From the NCBI GenBank assembly GCA_017650045.1, contig JAGCFP010000052.1, forward strand, positions 1 to 44,727: a stretch of DNA of 44,727 nt, given 5' to 3'. Each line of letters starts with the position of its first letter. Within the stretch, counting starts at the first letter, position 1. This DNA comes from Bacteroidaceae bacterium (lineage in GTDB: Bacteria; Bacteroidota; Bacteroidia; Bacteroidales; Bacteroidaceae). Positions 2 to 5,915 of this stretch are shown here, piece by piece. The position numbers and the translations under genes are program-made. The notes beneath the pieces were generated by a model. That model saw nothing but the letters and a program-made list of their open reading frames with translations. It was not told the DNA's origin and did not search any database.

Positions 2-712
2 TTATTTGGTTCGTGGCTTTCGAGCCAAGGACTGGATGCACGTGGTCAGTATGCTTATATGAAAAGTGGATGGCTTGATCGTATTTCTAAAGGGGTATAT
101 AAGATACATGGAACAGAACCAAGCCTATTGGCAGTTGTATCGTCATATAACACGCAACTTAGTAAGAGTTGTGTGGTGGGTGCATATACAGCTCTGGAAC
201 TTCGAGGATACTCCCATTATCTTTCTATGGGGAAACCTGTGGCTTATCTGTTTACAGACAAAAGCAATAAGTTGCCTTCGTGGTTGTTAAAAGAAGAGTG
301 GGATATGACAATAAAATATATGACTACTTCTTTCCTGGGTGATGAACTGTTGGGTGTAACAACCATGACTATCAATCAACATGATTTGCTTGTTTCATCT
401 CCAGAGCGTGCCATTTTGGAGTGTCTGAACTTGCCAGATGCCTCTTCTTCTTTGCTCGATATCTATTATATCATGGAGGGTTTGACTACATTACGTCCCA
501 AGTTGGTTCAGACGTTATTGGAGAAATGTACATCTCAGAAAGTGAAACGCCTGTTCCTCTATATGGCAGAAAAGGCAGGCCACGCCTGGTATAAGGCTTT
601 GAAACTGGAGAATATCAATCTTGGCACTTCAAGGTTTATGATTACGCCTACTGGAAAGTACATCAATAAGTATAATATGACAATCTCAAAAGAACTTGCA
701 GAATATGAATGA
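2..712 (+). CDS. AbiEi-type antitoxin / transcriptional regulator, 5' end outside the window
   Basis: Resembles the AbiEi antitoxin family of type IV toxin-antitoxin systems, whose members repress their own operon through an N-terminal winged helix and neutralise the nucleotidyltransferase toxin AbiEii. The frame is open to the left edge: before the ATG at 59 it reads LFGSWLSSQGLDARGQYAY, which continues into MKSGWLDRISKGVYKIHG. This is the usual AbiEi N-terminal helix-turn-helix with its KSGWL...G.Y wing, so the ATG at 59 is internal and the true start lies outside the window. The C-terminal part (roughly residues 100-210 of the visible protein, including SSPERAILECLNLPD) fits the AbiEi C-terminal domain. 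Normally an intact abiEii follows at once. Here a caspase-like gene follows, and only a toxin relic is found at 1408-1688. The family call is made from motif pattern, not from an alignment. Confidence 0.8.
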   Translation, partial: LFGSWLSSQGLDARGQYAYMKSGWLDRISKGVYKIHGTEPSLLAVVSSYNTQLSKSCVVGAYTALELRGYSHYLSMGKPVAYLFTDKSNKLPSWLLKEEWDMTIKYMTTSFLGDELLGVTTMTINQHDLLVSSPERAILECLNLPDASSSLLDIYYIMEGLTTLRPKLVQTLLEKCTSQKVKRLFLYMAEKAGHAWYKALKLENINLGTSRFMITPTGKYINKYNMTISKELAEYE

Positions 713-784: not shown

Positions 785-1366
785 ATGGGCAACAAAATTT
801 TTTGTTTAGAAACGGAATGGGAACAAAGTATCTATGATCTAAAATACGACTCCCAAGCAAAACCTTTACTTGAATTCTTGAACAATTCAAATGGGGTTGA
901 TTTTTCTTTTAGACAAGTTGCTACAAAATCGGATTTCAATTATTACGTAAGCCATTTACAAAAAGCTTCATATAAAGATTTTACGATTGTTTATCTTTGT
1001 TTTCATGGATCAAAAGGAAATATCTCATTTGCAGATTGTGGAAAGTATGGCTGTCAAGGAGAATATAGAATTATGGATTTCGCTAAGGACAATCCTGATA
1101 TTTTTAATGGGAAGATTGTACATTTTGGCTGTTGTAATACTCTAAAAATAAAAAAAGAAGAGATTCGTGATTTTAAGAAAATGACGGGTGCTTTGATGGT
1201 TAGTGGATATGAAAAAAGCGTAGAGATGACTGGTAGCTTCATTTTTGAAGCTTGGCTATTAGATACGTTATATAATAATCCTTCTATTAGAGCAACTCGA
1301 TTGATGAACTTAGCCAAAAAAGAAATGGATTATTTTGTTAACAAATATAGTTTTACGGCATATTAG
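785..1366 (+). CDS. CHAT/caspase-like protein (DUF6642-like)
   Basis: A 193-residue protein with the layout of a small clan CD (CHAT/caspase-like) peptidase. A hydrophobic strand ends in YLCFHGSKG (His74), and a second strand ends in VHFGCCNTL, where Cys117 sits in the C-x-T position of the CHAT motif. After these comes VSGYEKSVEMTGSFIFEAWLLD, similar to the region after the catalytic Cys in CHAT proteins. It most resembles the short single-domain family I know as DUF6642. Caspase-like proteins of this clan often act as effectors in bacterial defence; a role here is inferred only from its position between an AbiEi gene and an AbiEii relic. Base composition is strongly AT-rich compared with the core genes. 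The start at 785 puts the N-terminal strand MGNKIFCLE at the beginning of the fold; no Shine-Dalgarno sequence is obvious, as is common in Bacteroidetes. Confidence 0.65.
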   Translation: MGNKIFCLETEWEQSIYDLKYDSQAKPLLEFLNNSNGVDFSFRQVATKSDFNYYVSHLQKASYKDFTIVYLCFHGSKGNISFADCGKYGCQGEYRIMDFAKDNPDIFNGKIVHFGCCNTLKIKKEEIRDFKKMTGALMVSGYEKSVEMTGSFIFEAWLLDTLYNNPSIRATRLMNLAKKEMDYFVNKYSFTAY

Positions 1367-1407: not shown

Positions 1408-1688
1408 ATGAAATTATATCTATATACATACGAGGAGTTTGAAGTGACTCGTGCCAAACTCATTAAGATGTCAAGTCGTTGATGACAGAAGCGGATAAAA
1501 AGTTCCTGATTTGTTTTGAATCTGGACAGCCAGAATGGGATGGATATGAGTTTGAATACTTCAAAGATTATCCATCTGTTCAATGGAAGTTGCTCAATCT
1601 GCAGAAACTCGCCAAGCATAATCCACAGAAATTGCAGGAGGAAGCAGATAAACTAAGAAATTTCTTTAATTTAAGTCTCAATAATTAA
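1408..1688 (+). pseudogene. Relic of AbiEii/AbiGii-type nucleotidyltransferase toxin, C-terminus only, frameshifted
   Basis: Two overlapping frames together give the C-terminal tail typical of AbiEii-family toxins. Frame 1 (1408-1482) reads TYEEFEVTRAKLIKMSSR and stops. The next frame, starting at the ATG at 1482, reads MTEADKKFLICFESGQPEW and later YPSVQWKLLNLQKL. The intact family pattern is roughly Y.E....R..LI.......LT..E..FL.SF..G.P.W followed by LPAVRWKL.NL, so the two pieces join with one small frameshift near 1470-1485. The whole nucleotidyltransferase domain (about 200 residues) is missing. The 3' fragment (1482-1688, 68 residues) could in principle still be translated, but it has no catalytic residues. 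Together with the AbiEi gene at 2-712 this indicates an AbiE locus in which most of the toxin was replaced by the gene at 785-1366. Confidence 0.65.
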
Positions 1689-1701: not shown

Positions 1702-2706
1702 ATGTCATACCAAGATTTTCAACAGAAGGTTTATTCGTACTTGATTAAGTATAAGAAGGAAAACCTTAAGATTATTGATAAAGGTACTTCTGCACATGGA
1801 GTTGAACACGATTGTTTATTACCAAAGCCATATAGCGAAGCCAAAATACCTATTATGCTTTATGATGGTATTAAAGAAACAGTGAAAGACATTCAAGCAA
1901 GCAAGTTTGCATATAAGCCTCACCTTGCAGCTTCTGTACATGTGGCAAGTTCTCAAACTGCATGTATCAACCTATTTGTGCCAATCTTGGAAAGTGAGTA
2001 CGCAGACCAAATACTTATAGGGGCAGGAGTCGTACCTAAAGATTTTGACCATATTGACAGGAACCAGCTTCGCAAAGGATATTGCTTTGAGTATTGGGAG
2101 TCAACACTAGAAGGAACAAAAGGGCTTCTTGGAGATCATAGTCCTAATGCTGGTACAGACTCAGATGTTGCCATTGCATATCGCAACAAGAACAACAAAC
2201 TGTGCCTTTGGTTGATAGAGCACAAGTTAACGGAACGAGAATTTACGACTTGTGGAGGCTACCGTTCAAAGGCAATTTCTCACTCAGAGAAGGCATATTG
2301 CACTTCTTGTGGTATTGAAGAAATTTTGAAAAACCACGATAAGTGTTATTACCACAAGCATTGCGGTTACTTCTATTGGAAAATTATGGATGCCCAATCT
2401 TCATTCTTCTGTGGTAAATTTGAAGGCAATGGCTGTCCGTTTAGAGGCGGTATGAATCAACTTTGGAGAAATCAAATGCTGGCTTTGGAACTTGAGAATA
2501 GAGGCGTATTTGAAGATGTCTATTTCTCGGTTGTCTCTCATCCAGATAATTCTTTTCTTGACAAGACTATGAATGAATATCGGGCACTAACAAATAACTA
2601 TCCAAAGTTCTATGACTTCAAATCAAATGCGCTTGTGGATGTGGCAGTTGATTATTTGCCTGATTGGTCAAATTGGTACAAGAAAGTGTATTTGGGAATT
2701 GATTAA
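1702..2706 (+). CDS. PD-(D/E)XK restriction-endonuclease-like protein (PGN_0703-like)
   Basis: A 334-residue protein that looks like the PGN_0703 family of putative restriction endonucleases. The nuclease core is visible: GTDSDVAIAY (Asp153/Asp155) followed by LCLWLIEHKLTE, giving the D-x(n)-E-x-K signature with Glu173 and Lys175. Glu130 lies in the preceding helix. After the core is a Cys-rich segment (Cys200, Cys203, Cys215, Cys221, Cys237, Cys245) that could bind zinc or an iron-sulfur cluster, as in some PD-(D/E)XK nucleases. No methyltransferase gene accompanies it in the window, so it is not a visible classical type II system. Its stop overlaps the start of the next gene (TAATG), which implies translational coupling with the genes at 2706 and 3376. 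The family name is from memory of motifs; nuclease activity is inferred. Confidence 0.65.
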   Translation: MSYQDFQQKVYSYLIKYKKENLKIIDKGTSAHGVEHDCLLPKPYSEAKIPIMLYDGIKETVKDIQASKFAYKPHLAASVHVASSQTACINLFVPILESEYADQILIGAGVVPKDFDHIDRNQLRKGYCFEYWESTLEGTKGLLGDHSPNAGTDSDVAIAYRNKNNKLCLWLIEHKLTEREFTTCGGYRSKAISHSEKAYCTSCGIEEILKNHDKCYYHKHCGYFYWKIMDAQSSFFCGKFEGNGCPFRGGMNQLWRNQMLALELENRGVFEDVYFSVVSHPDNSFLDKTMNEYRALTNNYPKFYDFKSNALVDVAVDYLPDWSNWYKKVYLGID

Positions 2707-3407
2707 TGTATCACCATGATTATGACAATATACAAATGATAGAACAACTCCGACCATTAATGACTCTTGATGCTAACATGAATACATCAGACATCGAAGA
2801 GCGTTTTGAACAAATAGCAAAAATGCTGTTTGAAAGTTTTGCTATTCAAAAGGGTGAGATGGTGTATCTCTTCAAAGAGATTGAGTTTTACTTCTACAAC
2901 AAGAATCATCGTGATATCATCACTCATCCACGGGAGTCAAAACTATTGTGTTGGTATGTAAATGACTTTGGAGGAATTGATTTAAATTTTGCCAGTAATA
3001 TTAAGCGTGAGTCTAGAGCTAATAGTAAAGGAAAGAATGTCAAGAAGTATGTCTTGGATGATAGCGCATACTTTGGGGGAATACTTATTCGTCAACTTAT
3101 AAGTGAGGATGGTTGTGAGGTTCTTAGTGCACCATTAGCATGTGCAGAATTGTTTAGGTGCTATGATGCCACAGGTGTTGACCATGGATTTCCTGTTCTT
3201 GTGGAACATGATAATGGCACAGTTGAGTATATCTGTAAACCTCGTGTTAATCTACTTAGATCAAATCAATCTGTTGAAGATAAAGTTAATAATATTCTTT
3301 ACCAATATCATGACAATGTACAATCTTCCAAAGAAACTTTATACCAAGATTTCATAAACTTCAAAGATAAACCATATGGATATGAACAACAAATTGCTTC
3401 ACGATAA
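2706..3407 (+). CDS. Uncharacterised protein, possible N-methylpurine DNA glycosylase (MPG)-like fold
   Basis: A 233-residue protein without a confident family assignment. I see a run of motifs that parallels the alkyladenine/methylpurine DNA glycosylase (AAG/MPG) fold: KEIEFYFY (Glu58, Glu60, Tyr62) where MPG has E-x-E-A-Y; DIITH (Asp70, His74) where MPG has D-x-A-x-H; and FGGILIRQL (residues 123-131) where MPG has the strand V-L-I/L-R-A. Similar short proteins occur in Bacteroidetes, but I know of no assigned function. It starts on the last base of the nuclease gene and overlaps the deiminase-family gene by 32 bp, so the three are very likely one operon. If the fold reading is right, it would be a base-flipping or base-excising partner of the nuclease. 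That is inference, and it could equally be an unrelated alpha/beta protein. Confidence 0.5.
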   Translation: MYHHDYDNIQMIEQLRPLMTLDANMNTSDIEERFEQIAKMLFESFAIQKGEMVYLFKEIEFYFYNKNHRDIITHPRESKLLCWYVNDFGGIDLNFASNIKRESRANSKGKNVKKYVLDDSAYFGGILIRQLISEDGCEVLSAPLACAELFRCYDATGVDHGFPVLVEHDNGTVEYICKPRVNLLRSNQSVEDKVNNILYQYHDNVQSSKETLYQDFINFKDKPYGYEQQIASR

Positions 3408-4266
3408 AAATACAAACGTAGTATTTCTATCTCCTTGTTTGAATACTAAAAAATATGGTAATCCTAAGTTCTATAAGGAGTTGATGACCATACTAAAGGA
3501 AATGGGTATAGAAACAAGAGAACTAAAATGCACTCGCGATTATTGGGCTCGTGACTATATGCCTATTCAATTGGGCGAAAATGATTTTTTGAAGTATCAT
3601 TATTATCCAGATTATCTTATAAATAAGGATGATATTGATTCGATAACGGATGTTTCAAAAGTGATATCCGGTATGGGTATTAACTGTCGTTCTACCAATT
3701 TAATCATAGATGGTGGCAATATGGTGCCATGTGGTCCTTATATTGTGATGACAGATAAGGTGTTTTCTGAAAACAGGAAAAAGAAAGATGATTGGGAATT
3801 CAAAGCCTTGCTAGATTCCGAGCTTGGTCATCCTGTTATCATTATTCCCTGGACTTCACATGAAGATGATGTGTATGGACATTCAGATGGTTTCATCAAA
3901 TGGTGTGGTGATAATCGAATACTGATGGGTAATCATGGTGATTGCTATCCTGAAGAAGCTGCATCCATCCATCGGATTCTTGAAAGTTATGGCTTTGAAG
4001 TTACAGAAATGCGTTTCAAGGACAAAGTTGATACTCCTTGTTATGAGTTCAACTGGGCATATATCAACTTTCTTCAGGTAGGTAAAAACATCATAATGCC
4101 TAAATTCAACATTGAAGAAGATGTAATAGCTCAACAATACATTCAAGAAGCATTCCCCGATTGCTGTATCCGTCAAATAGAAATGGCAGAAATTGCAAAA
4201 GAAGGTGGCGCTTTACATTGTTTAAGTTGGAATGTATATCTTCCAAAATCACATGTGAAAACGTAA
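3376..4266 (+). CDS. Agmatine deiminase / Porphyromonas-type peptidylarginine deiminase family protein
   Basis: A 296-residue member of the guanidino-group-modifying superfamily. The family's conserved blocks are present in order: CTRDYWARDYMP (Arg54, Asp55, Trp57, Asp60), IIDGGNMV (Asp112), YGHSDGFIKW (His169, Asp171) and EGGALHCLSW (His281, nucleophile Cys282). The catalytic Cys, His and Asp set is complete, so it should be an active hydrolase of a guanidine substrate (agmatine, arginine or peptidyl-arginine). No signal peptide or agmatine-pathway partner (such as N-carbamoylputrescine amidase) is seen. Instead it overlaps the 3' end of the MPG-like gene by 32 bp, within an apparent defence cassette, so a metabolic role is doubtful. 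An alternative start lies at 3382. The family call is firm; the substrate is unknown. Confidence 0.85.
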   Translation: MDMNNKLLHDKNTNVVFLSPCLNTKKYGNPKFYKELMTILKEMGIETRELKCTRDYWARDYMPIQLGENDFLKYHYYPDYLINKDDIDSITDVSKVISGMGINCRSTNLIIDGGNMVPCGPYIVMTDKVFSENRKKKDDWEFKALLDSELGHPVIIIPWTSHEDDVYGHSDGFIKWCGDNRILMGNHGDCYPEEAASIHRILESYGFEVTEMRFKDKVDTPCYEFNWAYINFLQVGKNIIMPKFNIEEDVIAQQYIQEAFPDCCIRQIEMAEIAKEGGALHCLSWNVYLPKSHVKT

Positions 4267-4484
4267 ATCACCACCTATGAGATATTTTTGTCCCTCGGCA
4301 AATTTCGGTTATCTCGGGGGACAGATGGGGGACAAAATGGGTGATAATCTGCAAATATCGAAGTTAAAAATCAAAAATCTGTAAAAACAGACGAAATTTT
4401 AAATGCTTGAAATTATGCGATTTACGAGCTATATTTGCAGATAGTATGCTTTTCTTTGCAAAAAATCACTTTCCCACGCAGAAT
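4267..4484. other. Noncoding junction between the accessory region and mnmE, with repeats
   Basis: No gene is supported here. The stretch holds an imperfect inverted repeat, GTCCCTCG at 4290-4297 against CGGGGGAC at 4315-4322 (one mismatch), and a direct repeat GGGGGACA at 4316-4323 and 4327-4334 with an 11-bp period. Near its right end lies the second copy of the mnmE 3'-end sequence. Closely spaced short direct repeats beside an attachment site would fit arm-type integrase binding sites, but this is a guess. The short plus-strand frame that runs from here into mnmE is antisense to mnmE. Confidence 0.5.
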
Positions 4485-4502
4485 CTACTTTCCCACGCAG
4501 AA
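4466..4502 (-). repeat. Tandem 18-bp attachment-site-like repeat at the mnmE 3' end
   Basis: Read on the minus strand, the last 18 bases of mnmE (4485-4502) are TTCTGCGTGGGAAAGTAG, coding F-C-V-G-K-stop. After one base a second copy follows (4466-4483), TTCTGCGTGGGAAAGTGA, 16 of 18 identical and again coding FCVGK-stop. The 3' end of mnmE (trmE) is an established integration site for genomic islands such as SGI1, whose 18-bp core is exactly these FCxGK-stop codons. Two adjacent copies next to an AT-rich defence-like region therefore look like an att site plus an integration scar. No integrase gene lies in the window. Confidence 0.65.
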
Positions 4503-5915
4503 ATGCTTGAAAATATTCTGAAGGACATCGTCTGCAGTCACCTCGCCTACGATGTCACTGAGGTGATAGATGCACTCGCGGATATCCTGTGAGAGGAAGT
4601 CGCCTGAGAGACCGTCATGGAGTCCTTGCTGCACGCGTTGGATAGCTTCTAAAGCATGGGTGAGAGCTTCGTAGTGACGGACGTTGGTGACGATGACGTC
4701 AGCCTGTGTCACTTCGGGCATCTCAGCAGCTTGAACCAGCAGATGCTGCAGGGCATCTATATTCGGGTCGAACTTGGCAGAGAGTTCAATAAATTGAAAA
4801 TTGAGAGTTGAGAATTGGAAATTAAAGCTGCGCTGAGCGCCTGTATCATTCAGGGTGGCTTGTGATTTCACAAAGGTAAAGTCGGCATCGCTTGGCTTAT
4901 CTGCTTTATTGCGCACGATGATGAGTTTCTTATCCTCACAGCGTGAAGCCATGTCGTGAAGTTCTTCTTCTGATGGGGGAGTGTCTATAAGCCAAAGCCC
5001 GATCTGCGCTTCTTCCAGTTTCTGATAGGCACGTTGAATGCCAATCTGCTCGATGGCGTCTGAAGTCTCTCGTAAACCCGCTGTGTCAATAAAGCGGAAT
5101 GTGATACCCCCAATCACGATGGTATCTTCAATCACATCACGCGTGGTGCCATGGATGTCGCTCACGATGGCGCGATCTTCATGCAGCAGGCGATTGAGCA
5201 GCGTACTCTTTCCTACATTTGTCTTTCCAACGATGGCCACAGGGATGCCTTTCTTCAAGGCATTTCCCACACGGAAAGAATCTGTAAGGCGTGTGATGAC
5301 TTGCTCTATATGATCAGCCAAACGGAACAATTCACTACGGTCTGCAAACTCGATATCCTCATGGTCGCTGAAATCCAATTCCAGCTCAATGAGCGATGTG
5401 AAATGCAACAGTTGGTCACGAAGCTGAGCCAATTCCTTGCTGAAACCACCACGCATCTGGCTCATGGCCAATCGATGCGTAGCTGCAGAGGTTGAGGCAA
5501 TCAAATCAGCCACGGCCTCTGCCTGACTCAAATCCATCTTGCCATTCATGTAAGCTCGCTGGGTGTATTCTCCAGGCATCGCCATGCGACAGCCTTCCTG
5601 AATAAGTAGTTGCAGCACGCGCTGCAGGATATATGAAGAACCGTGACAAGCTATCTCTGTGCTGTCTTCACCTGTATAGGAGTGGGGGGCACGGAAAAGA
5701 CTGACTAGCACCTCATCTACAATCTCCTTGCCATCTGTAATCTGCCCAAAGGTTAGACTATAGGGCTTGGCATCCTCCAATGACTTTGCTGCCTTAGAAG
5801 GTTTGAAGATGTGGCTGGTAGCAGTAATGGCATCTGGTCCACTCACGCGTATCAGTCCGATAGCACCCCCTTGTGCAGTAGCGATGGCGCAGATGGTATC
5901 TTCTACTCGATTCAT
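4485..5915 (-). CDS. mnmE: tRNA uridine-5-carboxymethylaminomethyl(34) synthesis GTPase MnmE
   Basis: MnmE works with MnmG to build the cmnm5 modification at wobble U34 of certain tRNAs, using a folate-bound one-carbon unit and GTP. The 476-residue protein has the N-terminal tetrahydrofolate-binding domain (about 1-120), the helical domain, and the inserted G domain with GKTNVGKST (230-238), HGTTRD (255-260), DTAGLRE (277-283) and NKAD (336-339). It ends in the invariant C-x-G-K tail with Cys473. Odd point: between the NKAD motif and the ELSAK (G5-like) motif there is an extra segment, about residues 351-375, part of which is encoded by a heptamer repeat array (4795-4822). It is last in a minus-strand operon and overlaps msrC by 4 bp. 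Its 3' end carries the duplicated att-like sequence. Confidence 0.97.
   Translation of the reverse strand: MNRVEDTICAIATAQGGAIGLIRVSGPDAITATSHIFKPSKAAKSLEDAKPYSLTFGQITDGKEIVDEVLVSLFRAPHSYTGEDSTEIACHGSSYILQRVLQLLIQEGCRMAMPGEYTQRAYMNGKMDLSQAEAVADLIASTSAATHRLAMSQMRGGFSKELAQLRDQLLHFTSLIELELDFSDHEDIEFADRSELFRLADHIEQVITRLTDSFRVGNALKKGIPVAIVGKTNVGKSTLLNRLLHEDRAIVSDIHGTTRDVIEDTIVIGGITFRFIDTAGLRETSDAIEQIGIQRAYQKLEEAQIGLWLIDTPPSEEELHDMASRCEDKKLIIVRNKADKPSDADFTFVKSQATLNDTGAQRSFNFQFSTLNFQFIELSAKFDPNIDALQHLLVQAAEMPEVTQADVIVTNVRHYEALTHALEAIQRVQQGLHDGLSGDFLSQDIRECIYHLSDIVGEVTADDVLQNIFKHFCVGK
4795..4822 (-). repeat. Heptamer repeat array inside the mnmE G-domain coding sequence
   Basis: On the minus strand four 7-bp units follow each other: ATTTCCA, ATTCTCA, ACTCTCA, ATTTTCA, then a degenerate fifth. 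They encode the FNFQFSTLNFQF stretch between the G4 and G5 motifs of MnmE. The same ATnYTCA heptamer family occurs at 10722-10748 and 17975-17995, so this is a dispersed short repeat that has entered a reading frame without destroying it. Confidence 0.75.

Follow-up and report, generated by a model that had tools for sequence, protein, structure and literature searches.

What do three overlapping genes at the edge of a Bacteroidaceae contig do together, and do they belong together at all? We addressed this question for a stretch of 44,727 nucleotides (nt) from a Bacteroidaceae bacterium (the window; assembly GCA_017650045.1, contig JAGCFP010000052.1, positions 1-44,727 of the forward strand), whose own genome is an assembly of 93 contigs that is 77% complete. 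The original prediction, made from the letters of the sequence, had proposed that three plus-strand open reading frames (ORFs) of the window form an undescribed defence system:

1702..2706, plus strand: gene 1, in the exchangeable position, a PD-(D/E)XK nuclease of the REase-ARP/PDDEXK_13 kind, 334 amino acids (aa) (Pfam, 26-sequence alignment)
2706..3407, plus strand: gene 2, core, a divergent AAG/MPG-like protein, 233 aa (alignments, AAG profile comparison, AlphaFold2 model)
3376..4266, plus strand: gene 3, core, a guanidino (amidino) hydrolase of the PAD_porph/agmatine deiminase type, 296 aa, with its catalytic set complete (Pfam, alignment, Foldseek of a fused relative)

The ORF coordinates agree with the overlaps that had been predicted, 1 base pair (bp) between genes 1 and 2 and 32 bp between genes 2 and 3, and from these overlaps we infer one translational unit. 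Across related loci, the stable unit is formed by genes 2 and 3 (below, the middle gene and the PAD gene), while the first gene is exchangeable. Our tentative reading, to which we give somewhat less than an even chance, is that sequence comparison has uncovered a mobile, probably anti-phage module of Bacteroidales. Its core would consist of an AAG-like protein and a deiminase, often fused, beside a partner that can be exchanged, and base recognition or deimination would be followed by the action of a nuclease.

A stable gene pair with an exchangeable partner

The main survey comprised 43 related loci (numbered with the prefix L), mostly from Prevotella, Segatella, Bacteroides and other Bacteroidales, many of them ruminant or gut, and including one metagenome-assembled genome of Erysipelotrichaceae and one 'bacterium P3'. 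In 34/43 loci a PAD gene was no more than 2.5 kb away from the middle gene (27 downstream on the same strand and 7 on the opposite strand). In genomes of the same family, 29 separate places were compared and the two genes were linked at 22 of them, with PAD downstream in 11, upstream in 9 and on the opposite strand in 2. The 29 were drawn from 37 by leaving out the window's own genome as well as seven places that were weaker or second ones, and L072 and L160, being one place, were counted once; without the six places that repeat loci of the 43-locus set the linkage was 16/23. The PAD gene was also near the middle gene in three of four loci from genomes of the phylum, and the five loci that a PAD profile retrieved from viral contigs contained the middle gene in three cases. 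Incomplete copies are found among the misses: L035, L037, L043 and L078 are truncated or lie at a contig edge, and L006 has a PAD fragment only. In 15 of the 43 loci the middle protein and PAD are encoded in one ORF (L023 with a partial PAD), which suggests a common substrate or a common complex for the core pair.

The position upstream of the pair (within 400 bp, same strand) is occupied by changing families, which were assigned with Pfam except that the C39-like matches fall below their cut-off and the ATPase-like genes were recognised by eye. Across the 43 loci we counted REase-ARP (6), an unknown 261-aa family (7), PDDEXK_4 (3), C39-like (3), DUF3800 (2), HNH (2), ATPase-like (2), KAP (1), Fic (1) and three singletons of no recognised family; there was no such gene or another arrangement in 8 loci and a contig edge in 5. 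The gaps between upstream and middle gene measured 27-101 bp, and 182-183 bp for the two ATPase-like genes. Seen from the side of the nuclease, REase-ARP was present in 18 of 247 phylum genomes at 24 places. At 22 of these, neither the middle gene nor PAD was seen in the 2.4-3.9 kb fetched for each, and the only two places with a middle-type or PAD gene are both in the window's own genome. With the other two genes unseen in the stretches fetched for 22/24 places, this nuclease resembles a partner of general purpose. The predicted three-gene unit was retained for the middle gene and PAD and given up for the nuclease: the trio as a whole does not generally travel together.

The window's own genome contains a second, diverged set on contig C7, which consists of a REase-ARP/PDDEXK_13 gene, a gene for a 255-aa protein of no recognised family, a middle-type gene and a convergent PAD gene. 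Its proteins are 25% (nuclease), 28% (middle) and 37% (PAD) identical to those of the window, and the middle-type gene keeps the equivalents of E60, Y62, D70 and R129. This gene was detected by two profiles, the first one (E 6.6e-7, within the stretch fetched there) and the enlarged one. Of the three PAD-type genes of this genome, two are members of the subfamily described here, and both have a middle-type and a REase-ARP gene as neighbours; the remaining one (48 bits) is located elsewhere. The diverged second set is the strongest support for the trio as originally predicted.

With a nuclease that occurs mostly without the other two genes, and with upstream neighbours that vary, one could also regard the three genes as passengers that entered an mnmE-linked defence island independently and became adjacent and overlapping by chance. 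We consider this quite improbable, since the middle gene and PAD are linked in most loci of the main survey, in several arrangements across surveys and with repeated fusion, and since the same genome has the trio once more, 25-37% identical, in its second locus.

Two further types of protein were noted near the pair. One is a papain/C39-like protein, encoded in either orientation at L007, L033, L035, L036, L039, L042, L044, L154 and L161. Its motif, of the Q-G-x-L-D-x-x-C type, is partly degenerate in L039 and L042, and Pfam matches are below cut-off or absent. In addition, when ORFs of at least 80 aa with a real stop were counted, proteins ending in ...PF, mostly after acidic residues, made up 12/352 near the pair (one being an apparent true single-stranded DNA-binding protein, SSB) versus 1/737 far from it. 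With the SSB removed the excess near the pair had a Fisher p of 3e-5, calculated on rows that are partly related. These proteins occur at L036, L039, L042, L044, L077/L161, L082, L083, L086, L138 and L154, and their ending resembles the C-terminal tail of SSB; it is carried by several of the partner proteins and by extended deiminases. Nothing relevant on the use of SSB tails in phage defence was found among the papers listed, as judged by title and the start of the abstract.

Conserved residues and ancestry of the three proteins

Gene 3 was recognised as PAD_porph (PF04371) with 82.4 bits (cut-off 25), and its residues D60, D112, H169, D171, N231 and C282 were invariant in 13/13 sequences, which bears out the predicted guanidino-hydrolase identity and its complete Cys/His/Asp set. 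Foldseek with the model of the fused relative L025 (pLDDT 86.7) retrieved agmatine and peptidylarginine deiminases (6b10 at E 1.6e-13), and a PAD sequence profile found 6b10 in the PDB at E 4e-23. In a comparison with the agmatine deiminase equivalog TIGR03380, gene 3 scored 45.8 bits, far under the cut-off of 381.8.

Gene 1 exceeded the Pfam cut-offs for both REase-ARP (PF22558; 58.9 bits, cut-off 27) and PDDEXK_13 (PF20796; 36.1 bits, cut-off 27); the meaning of 'ARP' in the Pfam name was not found. We aligned 26 members of the REase-ARP family, namely one ORF from each of 22 of the 24 places (L144, which is the window itself, and L145, which is short, were omitted) together with those of the window, L025, L028 and L029. 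In this alignment E130, D155, E173, K175 and Q253 were each conserved in 26/26 rows. The PD-(D/E)XK identity is thus upheld by the Pfam cut-offs and the intact catalytic residues, and two members of the predicted core, Glu173 and Lys175, are correct. The third, Asp153, is present, but the invariance of D155 identifies the latter as the conserved Asp. A Cys-rich insert is found in the window, L025, L028 and L029; L143 and L123 have fewer of the Cys, and the insert was not seen in the remaining printed rows of the alignment.

The middle protein is the most divergent of the three, and had no match to a Pfam, PADLOC or NCBIfam family at cut-off. Its motifs E58-x-E60-x-Y62, D70-x-x-T-H74 and GGILIR (124-129) were the ground on which it had been likened to MPG/AAG glycosylases. 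Conservation over 66 relatives was high for E60 (64/66, with 2 gaps), Y62 (65/66) and R129 (66/66), and amounted to 52/66 for H68 and 38/66 for H74, which is replaced by Tyr in 27. Invariant in 35 middle-protein sequences were A38, E60, F61, Y62, D70, G90, D92, F95, G124, G125, R129, P143 and Y224. We take the human AAG counterparts of the Glu, Tyr, His and Arg to be E125, Y127, H136 and R182. The AAG His at the aligned position is catalytic, and in the profile alignment it coincides with H68 and not H74.

PF02245, the AAG family, gave no match for the window protein and was detected in one of 8 relatives (L086) with 15.8 bits and E 0.0093, below the cut-off of 27. With E values up to 1 allowed, the middle protein had a single Pfam match, PAZ_2 (E 0.0057, 16.9 bits), which was rejected, being under its cut-off of 23 and not seen in 8 relatives. 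The resemblance to MPG/AAG was borne out by profile comparison of diverged relatives. The whole-family profile (66 rows) aligned collinearly with 31 AAG rows at Prob 12 and P 0.0024, and 31 diverged rows reached Prob 67.7 and E 4.9e-5 against 31 AAG rows. After realignment of the diverged rows, 186 seed combinations compared with AAG had a median of Prob 73.6 (E 2.9e-5) and a best value of Prob 94.7 (E 5.8e-8). The best real pair scored 54.5, versus at most 15.9 for reversed AAG and at most 18.7 for decoys (154 comparisons from 14 families). The best alignment comprised the N-terminal helix, E-x-E-x-Y, the H, G-x-L-x-R, G-P, R-I-G and the C-terminal YRY/WRF segment. From these profiles, descent of the middle protein from AAG appears likely rather than proven. 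The residues D70, G90 and D92, which are invariants of its own, may reflect a changed chemistry.

The AlphaFold2 model of the middle protein was confident (pLDDT 89.1, pTM 0.86). Its fold matches two uncharacterised giant-virus proteins, from Hyperionvirus (E 7.9e-9) and Catovirus (E 1.9e-8), far better than any solved structure among the matches listed. At L073 (1438-2637) a middle-type domain is preceded by at least 196 residues of no recognised family, with the start of the ORF beyond the stretch.

A possible role in defence

AAG-type proteins flip bases, pentein hydrolases need a guanidine or amidine, and such groups occur in guanine and in some hypermodified phage bases. It is from the combination of these properties that we propose an order of recognition, deimination and/or excision, and cutting. 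The AAG-like protein would bind DNA and flip a purine-type base, which could be a hypermodified phage base or guanine itself, and the fused or bound deiminase would hydrolyse the guanidino or amidino group of the flipped base or of a related nucleotide. The DNA would in this way be marked by base loss or an altered base, and its destruction would fall to the partner nuclease or to a different local effector. The most likely role of such a sequence of events would be defence against phages or other invading DNA. A bolder version, which we rate as unlikely, is that this constitutes a new immune chemistry: an AAG-derived base flipper fused to a guanidino/amidino hydrolase would deiminate or strip a base of the invading DNA in situ and hand the site to interchangeable nucleases, with the acidic ...PF tails tying the process to replication forks or single-stranded DNA.

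A number of results weigh against the proposed module. Foldseek with the model of the middle protein gave a best PDB match at E 0.21 and no AAG among the best 50 of 410, in a search run without a positive control, so that the structural agreement with AAG/MPG expected in the original prediction did not materialise; it is for this reason that we call the protein AAG-like and do not file it under PF02245. The 33 near rows of the window protein, taken alone, had no AAG match (Prob 0.2). In match-column form the whole-family profile scored 18.7, about the mean of block-shuffled AAG (18.4), and the Prob of 12 was all that its full form reached. The worst of the 186 seed combinations was at Prob 4, and 1 of 200 shuffles of AAG in 20-column blocks scored higher than unshuffled AAG did with one diverged profile (40.4 versus 39.5). 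In the second set of the same genome the middle protein is without H68, and a 35-row profile run over this genome with E up to 1 did not list its gene. Linkage has exceptions as well: at L148, L149, L150 and L162 the 13 kb around the middle gene contain no PAD, and a GIY-YIG (LEM-3-like) gene stands instead of PAD at L017-L020, on the opposite strand in L017-L019. Finally, several pairs are situated amid genes that look ordinary by eye, for example at L153, L159, L163 and L166. A protein similar to the GIY-YIG protein of L017-L020 is encoded near the second set (L147, 2473-3237).

Nonetheless, a defence role of the module is plausible from its genomic surroundings, and we favour it because of the neighbours, the patchy distribution, the nuclease partners and the position of one PAD directly after HsdR. 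Defence-type neighbours, which had been anticipated for this setting, were found in the window and at related loci: AbiE in the window, genes of the GmrSD type and a PDC-S26 nuclease, and at L165 an MTase_II/PglX-like gene stands directly before the middle/PAD pair. The middle gene was present in 34/399 genomes of the family and 6/395 genomes of the phylum, with the window's own genome in both sets. On the viral contig L084 a PAD of this subfamily (5001-5879) directly follows HsdR and is succeeded by HsdM-like (by eye) and YhcG-type nuclease genes; no middle gene was found by this PAD. In PADLOC 2.0.0 all three proteins matched 0 families at E up to 1, in keeping with the description of the system as undescribed, and among the papers listed from a literature in which subscription papers are thinly covered, there was no description of an AAG-type or deiminase-containing phage-defence unit.

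The pairs among ordinary-looking genes would be expected if the two proteins were a small metabolic or repair pair, concerned for instance with polyamines, guanidine or damaged nucleotides, that by chance resides in mobile hotspots together with defence genes. AAG relatives are repair enzymes and agmatine deiminases are found among the PAD_porph proteins, which would also fit. The patchy distribution, the repeated change of neighbours among nucleases and further genes of defence type, and the TIGR03380 score far under its cut-off make this an improbable explanation.

A somewhat unlikely alternative, if less so, is a defence module in which the deiminase itself is the effector and, upon infection, stops growth by acting on free arginine or agmatine, or on protein arginines, with the AAG-like protein as its sensor or inhibitor and the nuclease as a separate defence gene. 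The full guanidino-hydrolase active site kept by the PAD subfamily, and its resemblance to agmatine deiminase structures, are consistent with this idea, as are loci at which the middle gene and PAD have no adjoining nuclease recognised by eye (e.g. L153, L159 and L163); a common core with swappable neighbours also resembles one module beside passengers. However, a toxin that depends on an inhibitor would not be expected next to HsdR without a middle gene being found, as at L084, and the nuclease gene shares 1 bp with the middle gene and is present again in the diverged second set of the own genome.

The other features of this part of the window are the following:

59..712, plus strand: AbiEi-type antitoxin/regulator of the same island, frame open to the contig start (Pfam AbiEi_3 2e-47; PADLOC AbiEi 1.9e-68)
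785..1366, plus strand: DUF6642 protein between AbiEi and the AbiEii remnant (Pfam 2.6e-18)
1479..1688, plus strand: AbiEii C-terminal remnant, 69 codons, covering model positions 231-289 of 290 (PADLOC AbiEii 8e-15)
4468..4502, no strand: two copies of ACTTTCCCACGCAGAA with 19-bp spacing at the mnmE 3' end, probable element/chromosome junction (repeat analysis)
4485..5915, minus strand: presumed mnmE (trmE), chromosomal, with the repeat at its 3' end (translation)

The last gene was named mnmE from the character of its sequence rather than by family search. At its 3' end the repeat probably marks the chromosomal junction of the element, only one end of which is on the contig. In 17/43 loci mnmE is found downstream of the middle gene at a distance of up to 2 kb, and in five of the 43 (L003, L007, L017, L019 and L025) the repeat flanks the element on both sides. 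These doubly bounded elements have about 2.7-5.2 kb between the repeats and contain the middle gene with varying neighbours; the element of L003 consists of the middle gene, a PAD that is divided over different frames and, among the ORFs listed, one further ORF of 74 codons. No integrase was recognised by eye among the ORFs between the repeats, for which no family search was made. As for the AbiE genes, AbiEii is reduced to about 60 C-terminal residues in the window, AbiEi is kept and the DUF6642 gene lies between them; at L008, L011 and L029 two genes separate AbiEi from an AbiEii-like gene, and for those in L029 Pfam indicates GmrSD.

The middle protein was not found in 72,556 plasmid records, and of the 95 pattern matches of its profile in viral contigs zero were confirmed. 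L049, a chance match inside a DUF262-like ORF as judged by eye, was dropped. PAD was found in 7 of 50,697 phage records, namely in L088 (an unverified record of 16.7 kb with the fused pair) and in six Bacteroides phages. The latter are Bacteroides phage DAC19 (L087, 5704-6756) and five related Bacteroides thetaiotaomicron phages, which encode a PAD_porph protein that is 25% identical and possibly serves as a counter-defence or DNA-modification enzyme.

Comparison with known systems

If our reading is correct, an AAG-like protein and a guanidino hydrolase, both without a PADLOC model, work together in a mobile module that is carried by Bacteroidales of gut and rumen. An AAG-type branch would then join the UDG-type anti-phage glycosylases, and deiminase chemistry would join prokaryotic immunity, with both core activities predicted to be united in one naturally fused protein of about 510 aa. 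If the role were not defence, there would still be no obvious explanation for the repeated fusion of a base-excision-type protein to a deiminase.

With the AAG/MPG family (PF02245) the middle protein shares the collinear profile match of its diverged relatives, including R-hydrophobic-G and the C-terminal YRY/WRF, whereas the window protein differs in having no Pfam match, invariants of its own and no PDB fold match among the best 50 of 410. Gene 3 has family, fold and catalytic residues in common with PAD_porph/agmatine deiminases (pentein superfamily, 6b10), but at 296 aa it stays below the equivalog cut-off and is paired or fused with an AAG-like protein. Gene 1 is above the cut-offs for REase-ARP/PDDEXK_13 with intact catalytic residues, and is set apart as a subfamily with a Cys-rich insert; 22/24 places of the family at large have no middle gene or PAD nearby.

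In the available portions of two reports, Brig1 and Brig3 are described as anti-phage base-excising DNA glycosylases of the UDG superfamily (PMC11078745, PMC13160076); Brig1 is protective alone (PMC11078745), and the fold of Brig3 was compared with human AAG (PMC13160076). As far as those portions extend, the likeness lies in a glycosylase-type protein in a defence setting, which in our case is AAG-like and known from sequence alone. The difference is that theirs belong to the UDG superfamily, whereas here a relative of AAG/MPG is combined with a deiminase and sometimes a nuclease. With regard to its location, the element recalls SGI1-type islands, which according to the portion available of a further report sit at the 3' end of trmE (PMC8409611). 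The element described here is also found at the trmE/mnmE 3' end, with the repeat on both sides in five loci, and differs from the islands covered there in its size of 2.7-5.2 kb, in having no integrase recognised by eye and in its occurrence in Bacteroidales.

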